Source: Brachyspira intermedia PWS/A
GTDB taxonomy: Bacteria; Spirochaetota; Brachyspiria; Brachyspirales; Brachyspiraceae
Assembly: GCF_000223215.1 (NCBI RefSeq)
Contig: NC_017243.1
Coordinates: 1,364,001 to 1,428,000, forward strand
DNA length: 64,000 nucleotides
Direction of reading: 5' to 3'
The notes under the pieces are model-generated. The model was not told where the DNA came from. It ran no database searches and worked only from the letters and a program-made list of their open reading frames with translations. A program made the translations under genes and the position numbers. Positions within the stretch are counted from its first letter, which is position 1, and the number at the start of each line of letters is the position of its first letter. Of this stretch, positions 3,413-14,001 are shown in pieces.

Positions 3413-4516
3413 TTATTGTGTAAGAAGTTTTATTATTTCTTCATTTTTTCCGTATTCTCTGGCATAATACAATGCATCATAATTACCTCTTTTTATACTT
3501 TTATCAGCACCAGCATCTAAAAGCATTTTTGTCATTTCTAAATTTCCTTTACGACAAGCCCACATCAATGCTGTCATACCATACTTATTTTGAACATTAA
3601 CATCAGCATTATTTTTAATAAGCACTTTTACAGCATTAATATTATTATAATCAGCTGCTTCTATCAATGCAGTTTTTTCATCATAATTTTTATAATTTAC
3701 ATTTGCACCATTATCAATAAGCTTTTGTAAAAAAACTTCATTAGTAGAATAGTGTGCAGCAGTTATTAATGGAACATCATAACTAAGCAAAGTTTCTTTA
3801 TTAAGATTACAAACTTTCAAACTTTTATCTAAAGAATCAGAACCATTTTGAAGTAAAATAGTCGCTATATCCTCATGTCCATACATATAAGCATAAATCA
3901 AAGCATTTGCATTATAAATATTTCTTTTATTTATATCAGCTTTATTTTCAATTAATATTTTTACAGTTTCTTTATAGCCTTTCATAGCAGCATACATTAA
4001 AGGTGTTTCTTCATTTCCATAATCTCCATCATAAGCTATATTAACATCCGCTTTATTTTTTATTAAGAGTTTTACCATTTCAATATTTTCTTTATTCTCA
4101 CCGCCTTTGTTTAAAGAAGAAAATAATGCTGTCCTTCCTCTAAATCCCTGATAATCAATATCAGCACCATAACTTAAAAGTAGTTTAACCATTTCCATAT
4201 TTTTATTATCAACTGCACCTATTAATAAGCTATCTCCAAGATCTACATTAGCATTAACATCTGCTTTATATTTCAAAAGAAGCTCAGCCATTTCTATATT
4301 ATTACGTATAACTGCAAGCGATAACAATGTAAATCCCTCATAATTACGATTGTTTACATAATCATTATATTTTTTAAGAATATTTTCAGCTTCTTTAACG
4401 TTACCTTCATTAACATAATCTATTAATTTTTCAGAAACTTTGCTTTTATTATTATCATTATTTTGAGCGTATAAGTACAAACTAAATAAAAATAAAATAA
4501 ATATTAACTTTTTCAT
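3413..4516 (-). CDS. secreted ankyrin-repeat protein, copy A
   Basis: A 367-residue protein with a signal peptide (MKKLIFILFLFSLYLYAQ, cleavage likely after YA) followed by about nine ankyrin repeats. Repeats are visible as recurring TPLMYAAMKGYKETVKILIE, GMTALMWACRKGNLEMTKML and N-x-A-D-V-N turns. It should be a periplasmic or surface protein-binding solenoid; ankyrin repeats give no catalytic clue. It begins 31 bases after the membrane-protein copy A and is very similar to the ankyrin protein at 5918-7006, from the signal peptide to the shared C-terminus YDALYYAREYGKNEEIIKLLT. It is convergent with the NADAR gene, with only 14 bases between the stops. Confidence 0.85.
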   Translation of the reverse strand: MKKLIFILFLFSLYLYAQNNDNNKSKVSEKLIDYVNEGNVKEAENILKKYNDYVNNRNYEGFTLLSLAVIRNNIEMAELLLKYKADVNANVDLGDSLLIGAVDNKNMEMVKLLLSYGADIDYQGFRGRTALFSSLNKGGENKENIEMVKLLIKNKADVNIAYDGDYGNEETPLMYAAMKGYKETVKILIENKADINKRNIYNANALIYAYMYGHEDIATILLQNGSDSLDKSLKVCNLNKETLLSYDVPLITAAHYSTNEVFLQKLIDNGANVNYKNYDEKTALIEAADYNNINAVKVLIKNNADVNVQNKYGMTALMWACRKGNLEMTKMLLDAGADKSIKRGNYDALYYAREYGKNEEIIKLLTQ

Positions 4517-4547: not shown

Positions 4548-5797
4548 TTATTTATCTTTTAAAAATACCATTACAATAGGAGCTATAAAAGAAAAAATAA
4601 ATGAGTAAATACCATAAACATAAATGAAGCTATATATTTTATTATTTCCAATTACTGCCTCATTTATATTGATATTGTTTTTTAATATCTTTATTATAGA
4701 CTTTATATTTTGTATTATAATATATACTAAATTAACAGCTATTATTATATTAAGAACTGCAATAGAAATTTCATTTATTTTATTTTCAGAAATAATTACT
4801 CTGTATATGCTTGCTCCTAATACTAATATATTAAATAATAATGCTATTATTGGAAATATTATATACATTGCCTTTGTTATTACTCCAGCTTTATAATCTG
4901 CTCTTATAAAGTATAAAGTAATAATAGATAAAATTAATAATACATTATAAATTATAAAAGACTTAGTATTGTCAAAAGGTCTTATAGGTTCATATAGTAA
5001 GGCAAAAAATGAAACAAATATTAAAAATGAATATAAAAATAATAATCCTCGAGAAATATATATTGATAAAACAGTTTTGAATCTCTTTTGCACAAAGAAA
5101 AATATAAACGGTATTAAAGTAGATAAATATACAATAAAAATCAAAATCAGTTTTGAGGCTAAGGTATTTCCATGTTCTTCAGAAAAAACAGATAACATTA
5201 AACCAAAAAATAATAATACCATAATTGCCAAAAATTCTAGCAATTCTACCAATTCTACCAATTTAATAATTAAGAATAATATTATTGCTAATAAAATTTC
5301 TGATGCTACAGAAAACAGTATTATATCTCCTAATTTAGTAAAACTATTATATGTATTATTCTTTATATTAAAATTGTTATCAGATAAAACTATTATAATA
5401 AAAAGATTATAGAAGATAATATACTTTTATTAATCATTATATTAGATTTAAAAAATTCAAGCATAACAGGTATTTCATCTTTTAATGGTGCTGAAGTAAA
5501 TATGCCAAGCAAAAATAAAAGTAAAAATGACAAAAATGTTATTAGTATTGTTCTTTTATTAATATTTTCTAAATTACTATCTATAATAAATAAAAATGAA
5601 TAACAAAAAAAATAAAATACTTGATAATAAAAACTATTAATAATAATTGTTGGATAGAAATTGTCAGCATTATGATCAATATCATATAATAATATTTGTA
5701 TATTTATAGGAAGAGAAGCTATTATTATTATGGTAAATACTAATATATGATATAATCTTTTTTTACTGCTCAAATTCATAAGCTTATTTTCAGACAT
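4548..5797 (-). pseudogene. multi-pass membrane protein, copy A, frameshifted
   Basis: Two reading frames together match the intact 400-residue paralogue at 7038-8240. The N-terminal part ends with SSIIFLL and a stop. The C-terminal part continues with DNNFNIKNNTYNSFTKLGDI in another frame. At 5400-5404 there are five A on the plus strand where the paralogue has six at the equivalent site (IIFL versus IMFF). Adding one base gives a single 416-residue frame of about ten membrane spans. The part starting at 5261 therefore begins inside the gene, not at a true start. The middle (around codons 160-200) differs strongly from copy B and contains a 9-base tandem repeat coding for V-E-L units at 5234-5260. 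Function is unknown. It may be dead, slippage-controlled or a sequencing undercall. Confidence 0.8.
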
Positions 5798-5917: not shown

Positions 5918-7006
5918 CTATTTTGTGAGTAATTTTATTATTTCTTCATTTTTTCCGTATTCTCTGGCATAATACAATGCATCATAATTACCTCTTTTTA
6001 TACTTTTATCAGCACCAGCATCTAAAAGCATTTTTGTCATTTCTAGATTCCCATTATAACAAGCCGACATCAATGCTGTCATACCATCTCTATTTTGAAC
6101 ATTAACATCTGCATTATTTTTAATAAGCACTTTTACAGCATTAATATTATTATAAGAAGCGGCTTCTCTCAATGCAGTATCATAATCATAATCTTTATAT
6201 GAACCACTATCAATCAGCTTTTGTAAAAAAACTTCATTGGTAGAATAGTGTGCAGCATTTATCAATGGAACATTAAGATTAAGCAAAGTTGATTGATTAA
6301 GATCACAAACTTTCAAACTTTTATCCAAAGAATCAGAACCATTTTGAAGTAAAATATTTGCTATATCCTCATGTCCATACATATAAGCATAAATCAAAGC
6401 ATTTGCATTATTTCTATTTCTCCTGTTTATATCAGCTTTATTTTCAATTAATATTTTTACCGTTTCTTTATAGCCTTTCATAATAGCATACATTAAAGGT
6501 GTTTCTTCATTCTCATAATCTCCATCATAAGCTATATTAACATCAGCTTTATTTTTGATTAAGAGTTTTACCATTTCAATATTTTCTTTACCATTATCGC
6601 CTTTGTTTAAAGATGAAAATAATGCCGTTCTTCCTCTAAAGCCCTGATAGTCAATATCAGCACCATAACTTAAAAGTAGTTTAACCATTTCCATATTATT
6701 ATTATCAACTGCAAGTATCAATGCAGTATCGCCATCACTTACTACAGTATTAACATCTGCCTTATATTTCAAAAGAAGCTCAGCCATTTCTATATTATTA
6801 TCCATAACTGCAATCGATAATAATGTAAAATCTTCATAATCAAGATTATTTATATCTCCATTATATTTCTTAAGAATATTTTCAGCTTCTCTAACATTAC
6901 CTTCATACACATATTCTCTTAATCTTTCATAAACTTTAGTTTTATTATCAGTTTGACTATATAAGTACATACTAAATAAAAATAAAATAAATATTAGCTT
7001 TTTCAT
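5918..7006 (-). CDS. secreted ankyrin-repeat protein, copy B
   Basis: A 362-residue paralogue of the protein at 3413-4516. It has the same signal peptide (MKKLIFILFLFSMYLYSQ), the same run of about nine ankyrin repeats and the same C-terminal ending. Differences concentrate in the solvent-facing positions of repeats 1-3 and in one repeat near residue 265, where about five residues are missing (SGSYKDYDYDTALREA versus a longer N-G-A-N-V-N-Y form in copy A). It follows membrane-protein copy B by 31 bases, exactly as in unit A, so the two-gene unit was duplicated as a block. Binding partner unknown. Confidence 0.85.
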   Translation of the reverse strand: MKKLIFILFLFSMYLYSQTDNKTKVYERLREYVYEGNVREAENILKKYNGDINNLDYEDFTLLSIAVMDNNIEMAELLLKYKADVNTVVSDGDTALILAVDNNNMEMVKLLLSYGADIDYQGFRGRTALFSSLNKGDNGKENIEMVKLLIKNKADVNIAYDGDYENEETPLMYAIMKGYKETVKILIENKADINRRNRNNANALIYAYMYGHEDIANILLQNGSDSLDKSLKVCDLNQSTLLNLNVPLINAAHYSTNEVFLQKLIDSGSYKDYDYDTALREAASYNNINAVKVLIKNNADVNVQNRDGMTALMSACYNGNLEMTKMLLDAGADKSIKRGNYDALYYAREYGKNEEIIKLLTK

Positions 7007-7037: not shown

Positions 7038-8240
7038 TTATTTATCTTTTAAAAATACCATTATAATAGGAGCTATAAAAGAAAAAATAAATGAGTAGAT
7101 ACTATAAATATAAATAAAACTGTATATTTTATTATTTCCAATCACTGCCTCATTTATATTAATATTATTTTTAAATATCTTTATTATGGACTTTATATTT
7201 TGTATTATAATATATACTAGATTAACGGCTATTATTATATTAAGAACTGCAATAGAAATTTCATTTATTTTATTTTCAGAAATAATTACTCTGTATATGC
7301 TTGCTCCTAATACCAATATATTAAATAAAAATGCCAGTATTGGAAATATTATATACATTGCTTTTGTTATTACTCCAGCTTTATAGTCAGCTCTTATAAA
7401 GTATAAAGTAATAATAGATAAAATTAATAATGCATTATAAATTATAAAAGATTTAGTATTGTCAAAAGGTCTTATAGGTTCATATAGTAAGGCAAAAAAT
7501 AAAGCGAATATTAAAAATGAATATAAAAATAATAATCCTCTAGAAATATATATTGATAAAACAGTTTTAAATCTCTTTTGCACAAAGAATAATATAAAAG
7601 GTATTATAGAAAAAACAAATACAATAGACATAAAAAGAAGTTTTTCAATTAACGATTCAAAATCACCTGCTATATTAGTTCTAAAAATAAATCTATCATA
7701 GAAAAAAGCAATAAATACCCAAAATACAAATGCAATAATTGCCGCTATTGTAGAAAATACAATTATATCTCCTAGTTTAGTAAAACTATTATATGTATTA
7801 TTTTTTATATTAAAATTATTATCAGCTAAAAGTATTATAATAAAAAACATTATAGAAGATAATATACTTTTATTAATCATTATATTAGACATAAAAAAAT
7901 CAGTCATATTAGGTATTGAATCTTTTAATGGTGCTGAAGTAAATATGCTAAGCAAAAATAAAAGTAAAAATGATAAAAATGTTATTAGTATTGTTCTTTT
8001 ATTAACATTTTCAAAATTGCTGTTTACACTAAATAAAAATGAATAACAAAAAAAGTAAAAAACTTGAAAATAAAAACTATTAAAAATCATATTGTAAATT
8101 AATTTTTCAAGATCATATGTAGTATCAAATAATAATATATATATATTCGTAGGAAGAGAAGAAATTAGCATTAGCACAAATACTAATATAAAATATATTA
8201 TTTTTTTACTGCTCGAATTAATTAGATTATTTTTAGACAT
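7038..8240 (-). CDS. multi-pass membrane protein, copy B (intact)
   Basis: A 400-residue integral membrane protein of unknown family. About ten hydrophobic segments can be seen, including IIYFILVFVLMLISSLPTNI at residues 14-33, a central IVFSTIAAIIAFVFWVFIAF and a C-terminal SFIFSFIAPIIMVFL. It ends in a short basic tail. No catalytic or transport motif was recognised. It is the first gene of a two-gene unit with the ankyrin protein, with the promoter at 8286-8314 and an AAGGGG ribosome site. The pairing with a secreted ankyrin protein and the tandem duplication suggest that the two act together at the envelope; that is inference only. Confidence 0.75.
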   Translation of the reverse strand: MSKNNLINSSSKKIIYFILVFVLMLISSLPTNIYILLFDTTYDLEKLIYNMIFNSFYFQVFYFFCYSFLFSVNSNFENVNKRTILITFLSFLLLFLLSIFTSAPLKDSIPNMTDFFMSNIMINKSILSSIMFFIIILLADNNFNIKNNTYNSFTKLGDIIVFSTIAAIIAFVFWVFIAFFYDRFIFRTNIAGDFESLIEKLLFMSIVFVFSIIPFILFFVQKRFKTVLSIYISRGLLFLYSFLIFALFFALLYEPIRPFDNTKSFIIYNALLILSIITLYFIRADYKAGVITKAMYIIFPILAFLFNILVLGASIYRVIISENKINEISIAVLNIIIAVNLVYIIIQNIKSIIKIFKNNININEAVIGNNKIYSFIYIYSIYSFIFSFIAPIIMVFLKDK

Positions 8241-8326: not shown

Positions 8327-10894
8327 TTATGATTGTTTAATATTGAGAATAAAGTTAATAGTCAAAAAATTATTCATATCATTGAAAATTTCTCCCATAC
8401 TTCCTCTTAAAATTTTGGCATTAGGAAGAGATTGAATAAATTGAGAGCCGTAAGTTTTTGTATAAAGCCTCTTATCAAGAACGAATACAACACCCCTGTC
8501 ATCTTTGCTTCTTATAAGGCGTCCGAATCCTTGTTTGAACTTTATAACAGCGAAAGGAAGAGCATAATCTAAGAATGCATTTCCTCCATTTTCTTCTATA
8601 TATCTGTATCTTCCTTCGCTTATAGGATCAGTAGGCACGGCAAAAGGAAGTTTAGGTATTATAACAACTTCCAAATTCTTTCCTGCAACATCAACACCTT
8701 CCCAGAATGAATCTACTCCGTAAAGTACATTGTTTGAAGATGATTTGAACATATCGAGTAAAGTATGTCTATGTATTGAAGCTGTTTGGGCTAGGGCATT
8801 TATATTTTTACTTTTCAATTTTTCTGATGTGTTTTCATATACATTCATAAGCGATGCAAAAGAAGTGAAAAGTATAAAAGCTCTTCCGCCTGTTATATTG
8901 CATACCTGAAGCAATACTTTTGAAGTGAAGTCATTAAATGTATCTGCAGCTACATCAGGCATATCTGTTGCTATATATAATCTTGCATTATCCTCATAAT
9001 TGAATGGAGATTCCAAATATATTTCTATTTTTTTATTTTTTTCTATATAATCAAAGCCTAATCTATTAGAAAAGAAATTAAAACTCTTTGAAACTGTTAA
9101 AGTAGCAGAGTACATTGCCACAGTATCAAATCTTGAGTATAGAAAATCATTTAAATTTTTGGCTACAGTTACAGGAGTTAAATGCCAATTAAGAATGAGA
9201 TTTCCTTTTTTGGTGAGTCTTGTTTCCACCCATCTTATATATTCATCTTTTTTGTAATCTATTGTAGAATTTAATGAAACTAATTGTCTTTTAAGCCTTT
9301 CTAAATAAGCATTTGACATTTGAGCTATTTCTTCATAATCAAAATCTTTTTCAATAGCAATATCAAAAAACTTTTTATATAATTTATCGCATACATTAAC
9401 AAGAGAGGTCATTGAAAGCACCATCTCTCTTAATGCTTTTAATCCCTCATTCTGCCAATGCTGACTCATAACGAGTTCAGGACTTATTCTAAATTTATAA
9501 CCTAGTCCTTCTTTAGTCTGAATATTTTTATGACAATATGTTATGAATTCTTTTGATTTATCTTCAACAACATTTCTCACCCTTGAAGTTAAATCATGTG
9601 CTTTATTTATTAAATCAAGTATTTCATCATATTCATGCTTTTCGATTAATGATTGTTTTTCATTAAGCATATTATTAATACTTTCTATCACTCCAAGTCT
9701 TTTATTTTTCTTTATTCTTGAAAGATAGAAAAGTGCTTTTAATATTCCGTTTTTACTTCCCTCATCTCCGAAATAACTTGAAGCAGAGTTTTCAAAATTA
9801 TGTGCCTCATCAATTAAGACTTTTGTATATCTAGGGAGAAGGCTGTATCTTCCTGCTGTTTCTGCATAAAGAGATAAATCAGCACAAAGTATATGATGAT
9901 TAACTATCAATAATTGTGCGGCATTTAATTGCTTACGCATTTTATAAAAATAACAATCTTCTAAATATTCGCATTTTCTATGAGTGCAAGTATCAGTATC
10001 GCAGCAAACCATTTCCCATAATTCGCCTTTAGGTTTATATCCTAAATCTGTTATTGAACCGTCTTTGGTTATATTAAGCCAATGGTCTATATCCTCAAAG
10101 AAATTTATCTGTTCTTCAAAATCAAATTTATCATGATCATTTAAACCTTCTTTAACTTTTTTGATACATACATAATTATTTCTGCCTTTAACCAAAGCAT
10201 ATTTTACATTCGGAGCAATTCCTCCTATGATAGAAGGTATATCTTTTGAAATAATTTGTTCCTGAAGATTTATAGTATTAGTAGAAATTACTATTCTAGT
10301 TTTATTTTCTTTTAACCATAATAAAGCAGGTATTAAATATGCAAAAGATTTTCCTATTCCCGTTCCAGCTTCAGATATTAAATGTTTATTATTGTTAAAT
10401 GCTTCTATAGTAGCCTCAACAAGTTCAGTTTGTTCCTGTCTGTATTCGTACTTTTTTAATAATTGGCTTAAAGTACCGTTTTCAGTAAACATATATAAAG
10501 CTTCAGGAACATCTATAGTTTTTACATTCTCTGATTTTATAGGCTTTACAACTTCATAATAATCATCAACATCATTATTGACTATATAAAAACCTACCCC
10601 TGCGTTATTACCGAGTTCACTTGCTATTGCTAAGTCTGCTCTTGAAGGTGTGAGCTGTCCAGAAGGGTGATTATGAATAACGGCATCAAATTCCAATGAC
10701 AATGATATTATAGCAGGTACAGAGTCTTTATTGCCTCTAGCCATTACCTCTATATAATCCAATATTCCGTAAGCATTAAAATTTATTCCAAAGTATACTT
10801 CATTTCCATAAGCATCTACTATTGCCTTTCTCATATAATTAATTGCATCTATGGAAAATACATTGTCTATTTCTTTTGCATAATTATTATTCAT
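8327..10894 (-). CDS. DinG-family helicase with N-terminal RadC-like JAMM domain
   Basis: An 855-residue two-part protein. Residues 1-130 resemble the RadC/JAMM fold, with HNHPSG at 74-79 followed by S84 and D87. This matches the H-x-H-x(7)-S-x(2)-D metal site of JAMM proteins. Residues from about 145 are a DinG/XPD-type superfamily 2 helicase: EAGTGIGKS Walker A at 175-183, DEAH at 362-365, and a C-terminal GVDSFWEGVDVAG plus QGFGRLIRS motif VI. Cysteines at about 243, 298, 303, 308 and 314 sit where DinG and XPD carry their iron-sulfur cluster. It probably unwinds recombination or R-loop intermediates. Whether the JAMM part is an active metalloprotease is unknown. The protein ends in a short tail rich in hydrophobic residues. 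Confidence 0.85.
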   Translation of the reverse strand: MNNNYAKEIDNVFSIDAINYMRKAIVDAYGNEVYFGINFNAYGILDYIEVMARGNKDSVPAIISLSLEFDAVIHNHPSGQLTPSRADLAIASELGNNAGVGFYIVNNDVDDYYEVVKPIKSENVKTIDVPEALYMFTENGTLSQLLKKYEYRQEQTELVEATIEAFNNNKHLISEAGTGIGKSFAYLIPALLWLKENKTRIVISTNTINLQEQIISKDIPSIIGGIAPNVKYALVKGRNNYVCIKKVKEGLNDHDKFDFEEQINFFEDIDHWLNITKDGSITDLGYKPKGELWEMVCCDTDTCTHRKCEYLEDCYFYKMRKQLNAAQLLIVNHHILCADLSLYAETAGRYSLLPRYTKVLIDEAHNFENSASSYFGDEGSKNGILKALFYLSRIKKNKRLGVIESINNMLNEKQSLIEKHEYDEILDLINKAHDLTSRVRNVVEDKSKEFITYCHKNIQTKEGLGYKFRISPELVMSQHWQNEGLKALREMVLSMTSLVNVCDKLYKKFFDIAIEKDFDYEEIAQMSNAYLERLKRQLVSLNSTIDYKKDEYIRWVETRLTKKGNLILNWHLTPVTVAKNLNDFLYSRFDTVAMYSATLTVSKSFNFFSNRLGFDYIEKNKKIEIYLESPFNYEDNARLYIATDMPDVAADTFNDFTSKVLLQVCNITGGRAFILFTSFASLMNVYENTSEKLKSKNINALAQTASIHRHTLLDMFKSSSNNVLYGVDSFWEGVDVAGKNLEVVIIPKLPFAVPTDPISEGRYRYIEENGGNAFLDYALPFAVIKFKQGFGRLIRSKDDRGVVFVLDKRLYTKTYGSQFIQSLPNAKILRGSMGEIFNDMNNFLTINFILNIKQS

Positions 10895-10978
10895 ATTAGT
10901 ACAATAATATAGTATATATTGAAATGTTTGTCAATGATTTATTTTTTGTTTATTTAATTATTATTTATATTTAATATA

Positions 10979-11405
10979 CCGCACGCAGACTAAAATTTTT
11001 AATATATGTTTATTGAAAATTCAAATTTAAATAATAAATATCAATACGTCCACCGTGCGTTAAAAGAATTCTATATATAATCAACTCTAGGGTGGGGATG
11101 CTTTTACAATTTAAGCTTTAAATATAAATCAATTTATAATATGTAAATAAAATAAAAAATATAAAGGGCGGGGTATGTAAATAAATCTTTAAAACTTATT
11201 TTCACTGCCCACCCTTTAGACTTGTTAATTTAATTTGTAATTTATGTTTTCTTATTTTTATTATTTATATTAGAATTTAAAAGCACCCACCCAAGTTTTG
11301 TTTAGGTTTAAAACTTGTACAACGCACGCAGAACAAAATTTTTTATATATGATTACTTTGAATTATAATCTAATAAGTAAATATAATTTTATTTACCGTG
11401 CGTTA
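10979..11405. repeat. nested GC-rich inverted repeats in an AT-rich gap
   Basis: This 508-base gap has no gene but holds six GC-rich islands. Two similar blocks of about 83 bases (10979-11061 and 11322-11405) each start with CGCACGCAG and end with CCGTGCGTT, so each can fold on its own ends. Between them GGGTGGGGATGCTTTT (11090-11105) faces AAAAGCACCCACCC (11279-11292). Inside that pair AAAGGGCGGGGT (11163-11174) faces GCCCACCCTTT (11207-11217). The order is symmetrical. The right-hand block overlaps the stop codon of the CapA-like gene. The islands may be REP-like repeats, terminators or remnants of a small mobile element. Confidence 0.7.
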
Positions 11406-12573
11406 TCTATGAGCTAAACTATTATTAGATACAATGCTACTGTTAGTTATATTATCAGCAAACATAGTCTTTACACTCTCATTTGTAAGAGGAGAATAAA
11501 AATCATGTATAAGTTCATAACCCTTTTTTATAGCATTAGTATCATAGGTGTTGTATACATAATTGCTTGCTAGAGTAGGCATATTAATATTAGGATCTTC
11601 TTTTATAGGCTTCATTACCACTTCAAAACCATTCTGTTTAAAGAAAGCATAATAAGTCGGTACATAAGAAAAATTAATCTCTTTGTTTTCATTGATTTCT
11701 AATGATACAACTGTACCTATATCAAGATGCGGATATCTTCCTTTATGATTAGCAATGAAATTTCCTAATGAATATATAATGATTCCGCTATGATTAGTTC
11801 CTTCATAAATTTCTACTGGCCTTGGTACATGTGGATGATGACCTACTATTATGTCAACTCCATTTTCTATCAAAGCTCTTGCAGTTTCCTTTGTTTTTTC
11901 TTCAGGAGCAGTTGTATATTCTAATCCGAAATGAAGAGATATTATTTTTATTTCATTGTTTGTGGCAAGTGCCAAATCAGATTTTACTTTTTCTACTAAA
12001 TCTTCTTGTTTAGGGAAGAAATTCATAAAATAGAAATGATCATTTTTATTTGTTTTATGACTTAGACCATTATCAAGCATAGTATATGCAGATATAAAAA
12101 GAGGCACATTATTAATATTTGTTATTATAGGTGCTATGCTAGGAGAATTAGTTGAACCTCCTAAAGTTAATTTATTATTTCTATGAAGTTCTGCTACAGT
12201 TTCAGATTCAGCCTGAGCCCCCTGATCATAAGCATGATTATTGGCTATTGAAAAAGTATTGAAGTAATTAAAGAAGTATTGCAAATAATCTAATGAGCCA
12301 TTAAATTCAGGATAAGGCATTGGCGGTTTATTTGTATTAACAACAAATTCTAAATTTGCAAATACAATATCTCCTTTAAAATAATCTTTCAAATCTATTA
12401 AAACATCATTGCTTTCAAAAGCCTTTACAATAGTTGGATGTGTCATTATATCGCCTGTGAATACTAATTTAAGACTCTGAGGTGGTTGAGGCTTTTTTTC
12501 TTGTTCCTGCTTATTATCAGCACATGAATATAGTAATATTAAAGATAAAGCAATGATTTATTTTTTTTATCAT
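11403..12573 (-). pseudogene. CapA-family lipoprotein, signal peptide frameshifted
   Basis: The uninterrupted frame from 12446 encodes a CapA/PgsA-type metallophosphatase-like domain: NLEFVV, SIANNHAYDQG, LHFGLEYTTAP, VGHHPHVPRPVEIYEG and YSLGNFIAN are the family's motifs. Upstream the same frame continues with ALSLILLYSCADNKQEQEKK and LVFTGDIMTH. This gives a lipobox (L-Y-S-C) and the first conserved GD motif. That frame meets a TAA just before. The ATG at 12573-12571, with an AGGAAA ribosome site, joins it only if one base is removed from the TTT at 12557-12559. The restored protein would be 389 residues and membrane-anchored. As written, translation from 12446 would give a cytosolic form lacking the first metal motif. 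CapA proteins function in polyglutamate or capsule export; the exact role here is unknown. Confidence 0.75.
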
Positions 12574-12612: not shown

Positions 12613-14001
12613 TTATTCATTTAAAATTTCTGAATCATTTTTTTCTGAGTCAGTTGTATCTTGTAAATCAATATTATCACTTTCATTTGTTCTTGAATAT
12701 TTTAAAGGCGTGAATTCCATTTCAACTATTCTTCTGTCTTCAACTTTCATTATCCTTACTCTGTAGCCTTTAAGTATAAAACGTTCATTTGTTTCAGGTA
12801 TATGATCAAGCATATCAATTACATATCCTGCTATAGTTTGATATTCTTCATGTTCTAATTCTAATTTTAAAGTTTTATTAACATCTTCTATAGGAGCATT
12901 TCCATTTATTATGATTCTTTTTCCTTTGAATCTTATTACATCAGCTTCTTTTTTATCGCTTTCATCTTCTATGTCGCCCATTATCTCTTCTATTATATCT
13001 TCCATAGTAACAAGTCCGGCAGTTCCCCCATATTCATCAATAGTAATTACCATCTGAAGTTTTTTCTTCTGCATATCATTAAATAAACTACTTATAGTCT
13101 TAGTTTCAGGTACAAAGTATGGCAGCATTATATAATCAATAGCTTTCTTTTTTATTTTGTTCATTTTTCCGCCGCCTTTAACATACTCTTTAAATAAAGC
13201 TCTAGTATGAAAAATTCCTATTATATGGTCAACTGTTTCCTCATAAACAGGGAATCTTGAAAGTCCTGATTCTACAGTAAGTTTTATAATTTCATTTACA
13301 TCTGTTTCAGCTTCTATGCATACCATATCAACACGAGGAGTCATAATTTCTTCTACAGTTTTATTTCTGAAATCTATTACACCTGTTAACATCTCATGAG
13401 TATATTCTTTAATTATTCCTTCTTTATGCCCTAGATGTATTATTGTTGTTATATCGTCCATACTAGATAATGCGCTTCTTTTTTCAGCATCTCTTAATCT
13501 TTTAGGTACAAAATAATTCATTATAAAAGTAGTTATTTTGTCCATTAAAAAAGTTATAGGCTTAAATATAAAATGACAAAACTTCATAAAGTATAGAAGA
13601 TAAGGCATCATCTTTTCAGCATTAACTCTCATAAGTACTTTAGGCAGTATCTCTCCAAATATTATAATAAGTATTGTTATTGTAGCAGTTGATATTGTAA
13701 CCATCACATTTGTTGATACATGGGGTAGAATGTCAGCAAGCCTCACAGCAAATACTGTTATAATGGAACTTGCTGATATATTAACTATGTTATTACCAAC
13801 TAATAGAGTAGGTATCATAGAACTTGATTTTTCCCAGTACTTTTTATCTTCCTCTTTTATTTTTTTCTCTCTTACTAAACGCATTAAGGTAACATCATCT
13901 ATAGAAGTATATGCAGTTTCGCTTCCTGAGAATAATGCTGAGAGCATAATAAGAATAATTATTATAAATATTTCAAATAAATAAACTAGTAGTACTTCCA
14001 T
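12613..14001 (-). CDS. CNNM/HlyC-family transporter with CBS pair and CorC_HlyC domain
   Basis: A 462-residue protein. Residues 1-190 form a DUF21/CNNM transmembrane domain (FIIIILIMLSALFSGSETAY at the start, then three more spans and GEILPK near residue 115). Residues about 205-330 are a CBS pair (VEEIMTPRVDM, then DYIMLPYFVPETKTISSLFN and QMVITIDEYGGTAGLVTMED). A C-terminal CorC_HlyC domain follows (residues about 345-430), then an acidic tail. The family is annotated as hemolysin-like, but characterised members are Mg2+ or cation exporters. It lies 26 bases after the amidase gene and 39 bases before the CapA-like gene, on the same strand. Confidence 0.87.
   Translation of the reverse strand: MEVLLVYLFEIFIIIILIMLSALFSGSETAYTSIDDVTLMRLVREKKIKEEDKKYWEKSSSMIPTLLVGNNIVNISASSIITVFAVRLADILPHVSTNVMVTISTATITILIIIFGEILPKVLMRVNAEKMMPYLLYFMKFCHFIFKPITFLMDKITTFIMNYFVPKRLRDAEKRSALSSMDDITTIIHLGHKEGIIKEYTHEMLTGVIDFRNKTVEEIMTPRVDMVCIEAETDVNEIIKLTVESGLSRFPVYEETVDHIIGIFHTRALFKEYVKGGGKMNKIKKKAIDYIMLPYFVPETKTISSLFNDMQKKKLQMVITIDEYGGTAGLVTMEDIIEEIMGDIEDESDKKEADVIRFKGKRIIINGNAPIEDVNKTLKLELEHEEYQTIAGYVIDMLDHIPETNERFILKGYRVRIMKVEDRRIVEMEFTPLKYSRTNESDNIDLQDTTDSEKNDSEILNE

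Follow-up and report, generated by a model that had tools for sequence, protein, structure and literature searches.

The locus analysed here lies in a stretch of 64,000 nucleotides of the Brachyspira intermedia PWS/A genome (NC_017243.1, positions 1,364,001 to 1,428,000), hereafter the window. It consists of a single uninterrupted open reading frame on the minus strand that starts with ATG and, according to the open reading frame list and its translation, encodes a protein of 855 amino acids (Table 1). In this protein a RadC-type JAMM domain (residues 6–125, approximately) is followed by a DinG/YoaA-type Fe-S helicase (approximately residues 128–850). A search of the complete genome with its own sequence returned the protein as the sole match at E 0.001.

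The gene has no evident operon in the window. Its downstream neighbour, on the same strand, encodes a membrane protein that matches no Pfam family (7038–8240); upstream, after 508 bases, come genes for a PGA_cap protein (11403–12446) and then a CNNM/CBS/CorC protein (12613–14001); none is an operon partner that hints at a substrate. The promoter predicted from the aligned upstream regions of the genus ends 11 bases before the ATG, which suggests that the mRNA is likely near-leaderless, with a very short 5' leader or none. Both lexA and recA are present in the genome, and no inverted repeat with six-base arms, as a possible LexA site, is shared by the regions before lexA and before the RadC-like DinG gene; SOS control may nevertheless be compatible with the lack of a shared repeat.

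Table 1. Features of the RadC-like DinG gene and its product, in window coordinates, and loci with the neighbouring phosphorylase gene.
Feature	Position	Strand	Basis
RadC-like DinG, 855 aa: RadC-type JAMM domain, then DinG/YoaA-type Fe-S helicase	8327..10894	-	Open reading frame, translation, Pfam, NCBIfam
RadC-type JAMM (JAB/MPN+) domain, approximately residues 6-125	10520..10879	-	Pfam RadC, AF2 model, VIA-align
E32, upstream JAMM glutamate	10799..10801	-	Invariant 79/79; aligns with Glu of own-genome canonical RadC
HNHPSG, residues 74-79, with putative metal ligands H74 and H76	10658..10675	-	H74, N75, H76, P77 invariant 79/79
S84-x-x-D87 of JAMM motif	10634..10645	-	S84 and D87 invariant 79/79
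Walker A EAGTGIGKS, residues 175-183	10346..10372	-	Conserved across 88 aligned proteins
Span of the four Fe-S cysteines C243, C303, C308, C314	9953..10168	-	Each invariant 88/88
DEAH box, residues 362-365	9800..9811	-	Conserved in 88-protein alignment
Helicase_C_2, residues 661-825, including motif VI 788-796	8420..8914	-	Pfam E 7e-46; motif VI conserved
Divergent C-terminal tail, about 11 residues unlike congeners (close relatives end DMNNFF/DMNHFF)	8327..8362	-	Compared translations
Promoter TTGACA-17 bp-TATATT, ending 11 bases before ATG	10895..10934	-	24 aligned genus upstream regions; spacing counted by eye
PNP-upstream loci: L036, L039, L041, L043, L049, L052, L054, L056, L057, L058, L060, L061, L085, L115, L121			

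Identity of the protein

Pfam searches with the full-length protein returned RadC (PF04002; 23.1 bits, cut-off 22.1), DEAD and Helicase_C_2, and the identification of a JAMM domain joined to a helicase is confirmed, far beyond chance. Among the NCBIfam models E. coli YoaA (NF053712) matches the helicase best, yet its 538 bits stay under the equivalog cut-off of 680. The same holds for ExoDinG (NF005981, 485.7 against 789 bits; TIGR01407, 384.9 against 547.7), for canonical RadC (NF000642, 22.5 against 180; TIGR00608, 19.3 against 133.85) and for the Type IV CRISPR DinG (Csf4, TIGR03117; 120.3 against an equivalog score of 400). The PADLOC model typeIV_DinG gives 386 bits in a match confined to the helicase part (residues 140–828), and the Pfam and NCBIfam searches matched no exonuclease family in the 855 residues. 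YoaA itself is not known to carry a JAMM domain and works with HolC; the HolC/chi family has 0 matches in the genome that carries the window.

The predicted structure of the whole protein (pLDDT 89.5, pTM 0.84) resembles the E. coli and S. aureus DinG/ssDNA structures with Z of about 36, the comparison with S. aureus DinG extending over 647 residues (Z 36) at 20% identity. Since this fold search covered residues 128–853, the N-terminal domain was folded and searched separately. A YoaA-like C-terminal helix is modelled at residues 833–854, with low confidence at the very end, where the last residues deviate in this strain. The protein is 855 residues long compared to 843–846 in nearly all congeners (846 in 16 close relatives), and its divergent tail looks like the outcome of a small indel in an A/T run that affects the C-terminal helix.

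The architecture is not new. The earlier note had implied that the fusion is rare; it turns out to be published as well as widespread. A recent review names a "RadC-like DinG" subgroup in its section 3.8 and describes a RadC-like domain in which E/H/H/D are conserved, together with a zinc-containing AlphaFold3 model and a metalloprotease-like topology; its DALI search gave metalloproteases, and this section presents no experimental work on the subgroup (Cheng, 2025; PMC11981726). The window protein shares with the subgroup so described the N-terminal RadC-like domain, the E/H/H/D residues, the YoaA-like helicase, the Fe-S domain, the C-terminal helix and a host without HolC (PMC11981726). We find each of these defining features here: the RadC domain, E32/H74/H76/D87, the four cysteines and motor motifs, the C-terminal helix and the missing HolC. 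The protein is thus a member of this subgroup. The review models a Desulfuromonas soudanensis protein, and its main text contains no word that begins with "spiroch", although its supplementary tables may list spirochaetes (PMC11981726). Fusions of RadC to DinG/RAD3-like helicases are also mentioned by Iyer et al (2017; PMC5512222), where a single sentence notes the same pairing of a RadC-clade JAB with a DinG-like helicase as background to plasmid proteins; the window protein, in contrast, is chromosomal and comes with data on conservation and loss. We recognised no experimental study of a fused RadC-DinG protein in the open-licence literature.

As the architecture already has a name, the value of the present analysis lies in the invariance of E32 and of the full motif, in the pattern of repeated whole-domain losses and in the lack of any ubiquitin-like machinery that could be recognised. 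RadC is a widespread protein over whose biochemical role the literature disagrees; a JAMM domain on a partly understood helicase offers a concrete handle, with one protein, one motif and natural relatives that lack the domain.

The JAMM domain and its metal site

Taken alone, the N-terminal domain matches Pfam RadC with 27.5 bits, and all 42 of 42 aligned N-terminal domains match this family as well; a sequence profile of the domain finds the solved RadC structure 2QLC (E 1.8e-9) as the only clear solved relative by sequence. The AF2 model of the domain (pLDDT 92.1) aligns in VIA-align to JAMM structures with Z of 8–11. Bacterial BubCD comes first (9ea4, Z 10.8, rmsd 2.7, 109 residues), alongside Rpn11 (Z 9.9), PfJAMM1 (Z 9.9) and AfJAMM (1oi0, Z 8.9); the fold match to RadC 2QLC has Z 8.5, rmsd 3.5 and 24% identity over 102 residues. 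By its motif and its predicted fold the domain is a JAMM/MPN+ domain.

The classical motif used for comparison is E-Xn-H-x-H-X7-S-X2-D (PMC300881), and the window protein has exactly this spacing, H-x-H-x7-S-x2-D, with N75 in the position between the histidines where the classical motif has S/T. An earlier note had proposed a complete JAMM site, made up of HNHPSG with S84 and D87, directly ahead of a complete DinG helicase with its cysteine cluster, and the spacing, the Pfam matches and the four invariant cysteines (88/88) bear this out. The upstream glutamate, which that note had left unplaced and whose absence would have spoken against such a site, is E32; E49 was considered for this role and rejected, as it varies across the alignment whereas E32 does not.

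Conservation and loss of the domain

How well is this site kept among relatives? Our alignment of 88 proteins comprises the window protein and 87 loci of the same phylum. The 60 relatives that were fetched had been hand-picked from the matches in the phylum, with each genus represented by one or a few and strong matches favoured. Two copies of the window protein (L001, L032), two fragments (L027, L029) and a canonical RadC (L031) were dropped before alignment. HNHP is found in 79 of these 88 DinG-like proteins, and E32, H74, N75, H76, P77, S84 and D87 are invariant in all 79. At 1e-10 the protein matches 260 of 296 genomes of the phylum, a count that includes helicase-only matches.

The RadC-DinG architecture extends beyond spirochaetes. 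A scan of the genome collection with a 43-sequence alignment yielded at least 80 loci; among the matches listed, the motif is complete in 38 of 80, and one further locus (L104) is cut ahead of the glutamate. Titles of these loci include, among the matches listed, Geobacter, Citrifermentans and other Desulfuromonadales, KSB1, Gemmatimonadota and Treponema, as well as single metagenome-assembled genomes, whose labels may be wrong, of Hydrogenedentes, Dadabacteria, Sumerlaeota, PVC, Fusobacteria and Acidimicrobiia. In a total of 168 aligned DinG-like proteins, all five residues (E32, H74, H76, S84 and D87) are present in 117, a number with at least one duplicate (L052 equals L115 in the helicase part); one protein is cut by its contig, 50 are motif-less, and partial motifs were found in none. 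The motif is complete even in domains with approximately 27–40% identity to that of the window protein.

The distribution of the domain was read on a careful tree of 46 of the 168 sequences, built from helicase columns only and rooted on three exonuclease-DinG sequences. This tree requires nine changes between presence and absence of the domain, at least eight of which are forced by well-supported branches. Its simplest reading would be one gain and eight losses of the JAMM domain, where "lost" depends on the rooting with the three exonuclease-DinG sequences. Presence of the domain is not more clustered on this tree than in shuffles (122 of 500 were as low) because its rows were picked around the losses. 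It is strongly clustered (0 of 500 shuffles) in a quick tree of 143 sequences, which likewise nests single domain-less sequences inside domain-bearing clades, and from which L104, L114, L132, L142, L092 and the genus loci L002–L023 except L006 and L021 were left out. L131 was omitted from the 46-sequence tree and not scored as a separate loss, since it has about 230 bases upstream on its contig. A split gene behind the domain-less DinGs was considered as well and rejected: the domain profile, run over all open reading frames of at least 25 amino acids in those loci, found no separate JAMM domain nearby.

Two sequences stand apart. The DinG at L061 retains only the last strand or strands of the JAMM domain (VIDNN...YVVVEP) and is apparently the remnant of an in-frame deletion. 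At L092, in a small genome of approximately 1.4 Mb, the N-terminus aligns to the JAMM domain and all motif residues are gone. Its JAMM profile score of 3.5 bits was reached by 1 of 397 scored shuffles (999 made) and so sits at the margin of chance; the L092 stretch may be a pseudo-JAMM, a candidate exception to a strict all-or-none rule. The loss of histidines in orthologues, which the earlier note had set against its own proposal, is accordingly seen at most in this candidate decayed copy, and H74 and H76 hold in all 79 domain-bearing proteins of the 88.

These patterns bear on whether the domain has only a structural role, as a module taken over from RadC for binding or regulation. That the domain is dispensable in several lineages, where it was lost while the helicase stayed, and that L092 is possibly a ligand-less decayed remnant, would fit a structural module and count against a catalytic reading. 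A purely structural domain would, however, be expected to yield many partly decayed motifs, and we find the complete motif in every recognisable, uncut domain, including those at approximately 27–40% identity. We consider a structural role improbable, and the suggestion of structural recycling in the earlier note fares poorly also in view of the canonical RadC that coexists in the same genome. The pattern instead suggests that lineages which retain the domain retain its chemistry as well, and that where this chemistry is not needed the whole domain goes.

Relation to canonical RadC and to ubiquitin-like systems

The separate canonical RadC of the genome scores 126.6 bits. Within the genus, PF04002 is matched twice in 24 of 26 genomes, and the stronger of the two matches is as strong as a canonical RadC. 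When this RadC (L031, a frame of 239 amino acids) and 2QLC are aligned with the fused domain, the RG, HNHPSG and PSxxD motifs and the upstream glutamate correspond, whereas the fused form lacks the N-terminal part of RadC and the 8-residue insert after the RG motif. Could the fused domain stand in for RadC, the canonical function having moved onto DinG? Canonical RadC is missing from 16 of the 79 JAMM-positive genomes and kept in 9 of 9 domain-less genomes, as such a transfer would have it. Yet 63 of the 79 JAMM-positive genomes, that of the window included, have both, and across the 88 genomes loss of the domain is not significantly associated with canonical RadC (Fisher p 0.20). The link is a hint at most, and we regard a replacement of RadC as very unlikely. 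Three genomes of the same family in other genera (G043, G051 and G140) have 9, 5 and 14 RadC matches, respectively, compared to two in most genomes of the window genus.

A role in ubiquitin-like-linked processing, one of the functions that the earlier note had suggested, would have the JAMM domain remove ubiquitin-like conjugates at forks or R-loops. Archaeal and eukaryotic JAMM isopeptidases perform such deconjugation, and the folds that lie near the N-terminal domain with high Z include Rpn11 and PfJAMM1, with bacterial BubCD at the top. The 100% complete genome, however, has 0 matches to ThiS/MoaD (PF02597) and 0 to ThiF (PF00899), whereas the same Pfam searches detected ThiS/MoaD in 11 and ThiF in 12 of 14 named control genomes. 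None of the 26 genomes of the genus matches ThiS and three of them match ThiF, though weakly (E of about 2e-4), and 51 of the 79 JAMM-positive genomes have no ThiS/MoaD match. The JAMM domain thus persists without recognisable ubiquitin-like substrates, with the reservation that Pfam ThiS/ThiF models can miss unfamiliar ubiquitin-like systems. Because of these absences we consider classical ubiquitin-like deconjugation most unlikely, and this suggestion of the earlier note is not supported.

Possible substrates and mechanism

What, then, might the JAMM domain act on? The intact E-HxH-S-D motif, the helicase motifs and the four-cysteine cluster can be read from the sequences, as can the apparent losses of the whole domain from helicases that are themselves retained. 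We infer from them that the domain is a metal-binding hydrolase of some kind. The reading that we tentatively favour, while holding it to be somewhat short of probable, is that RadC-like DinG is a YoaA/DinG-type helicase of the XPD family with a catalytic N-terminal JAMM cassette that acts on DNA or on a DNA-attached substrate. ExoDinG (S. aureus DinG, 8ZEF/9II8; PMC12345164) belongs to the same helicase family and likewise has an extra enzyme domain at its N-terminus, in that case a 3'-5' exonuclease and not a JAMM domain. This shared position at the same end of the helicase, together with the lack of recognisable ubiquitin-like systems, suggests that the JAMM domain may work on something linked to DNA. 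Judging from its helicase family, the protein would load on single-stranded DNA where a fork has stalled or the template is damaged and would move 5' to 3', and the motor could present DNA, a nucleotide-like end group or a DNA-attached entity to the JAMM centre, which would then hydrolyse it.

Among candidate substrates we would place nucleic acid or a nucleotide first, a DNA-bound protein second and a ubiquitin-like conjugate last. A nucleic acid role has been considered for RadC itself: in Zhang et al (2012; PMC3482391) RadC figures as a potential nuclease. Iyer et al (2017; PMC5512222) argue that RadC JABs have no groove into which a ubiquitin tail would fit and that they occupy the same position as nuclease domains; instead of ubiquitin processing, they propose that these domains act as nucleases or otherwise on nucleic acids. 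Characterised JAMM enzymes are peptidases or isopeptidases, so that nuclease activity would add a new chemistry to this fold.

A rival reading is the processing of DNA-bound proteins, in which the helicase would meet a crosslinked or tightly bound protein and unfold it, and the JAMM domain would cleave it. Eukaryotes divide such work between FANCJ, an XPD-family helicase, and a protease (a comparison with SPRTN), and the protein-processing reading would make RadC-like DinG a one-polypeptide counterpart of FANCJ plus protease. The N-terminal domain has the fold and motif of a metallopeptidase and an XPD-family motor as its partner, its own genome offers no recognisable ubiquitin-like substrate, and the DALI search of Cheng also gave metalloproteases (PMC11981726). 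Against this, known JAMM peptidases are narrow in specificity, and it has been argued that RadC-type domains have no groove to take up a peptide tail (PMC5512222). On balance we think protein processing unlikely, if worth keeping in mind.

The most far-reaching reading is a motor-coupled JAMM hydrolase in a single polypeptide, whose Fe-S helicase would feed blocked DNA to the JAMM centre for removal of the block, either a chain-terminating or damaged nucleotide or a protein adduct; we see it as a speculative possibility, rather doubtful as it stands. The gene order of other spirochaetes is of interest here. In 15 loci (14 domain-bearing and L061; Table 1) the gene immediately upstream, in the same orientation, encodes a purine nucleoside phosphorylase (PNP). 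Its distance from the DinG start, measured in 13 of these loci, falls between -11 and +41 bases in 11, and the arrangement occurs in eight families. PNP is the commonest neighbour family (12 of 97 loci), and there is no general operon partner. Were the motor-coupled hydrolase real, this pairing in eight spirochaete families would point to its nucleotide version. Wider gene-order conservation in some lineages makes the adjacency a lead rather than proof of joint function. Stop-free frames at L060 and L085 had raised the possibility of a PNP-JAMM-DinG fusion, which we rejected, as these are out-of-frame readings of a phosphorylase gene that overlaps the DinG start.

The two substrate classes differ in what they would imply. 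If the nucleotide version is true, the RadC-type JAMM would be the first domain of this kind with a demonstrated action on nucleic acid, and the "peptidase" label of an entire clade of domains would have to be revised. With protein adducts as its substrate, the protein would be a bacterial helicase-protease in one chain.

Other observations in the window and genome

Two further features were observed outside the RadC-like DinG gene. Two copies of an ankyrin-repeat protein gene lie on the minus strand (3413–4516 and 5918–7006), each adjoining a copy of the membrane-protein gene, of which the one next to the RadC-like DinG gene is intact and the other (4548–5797) is split between two frames. In the same genome, a run of approximately eleven tandem five-base units of GGCTT precedes lexA (L176).
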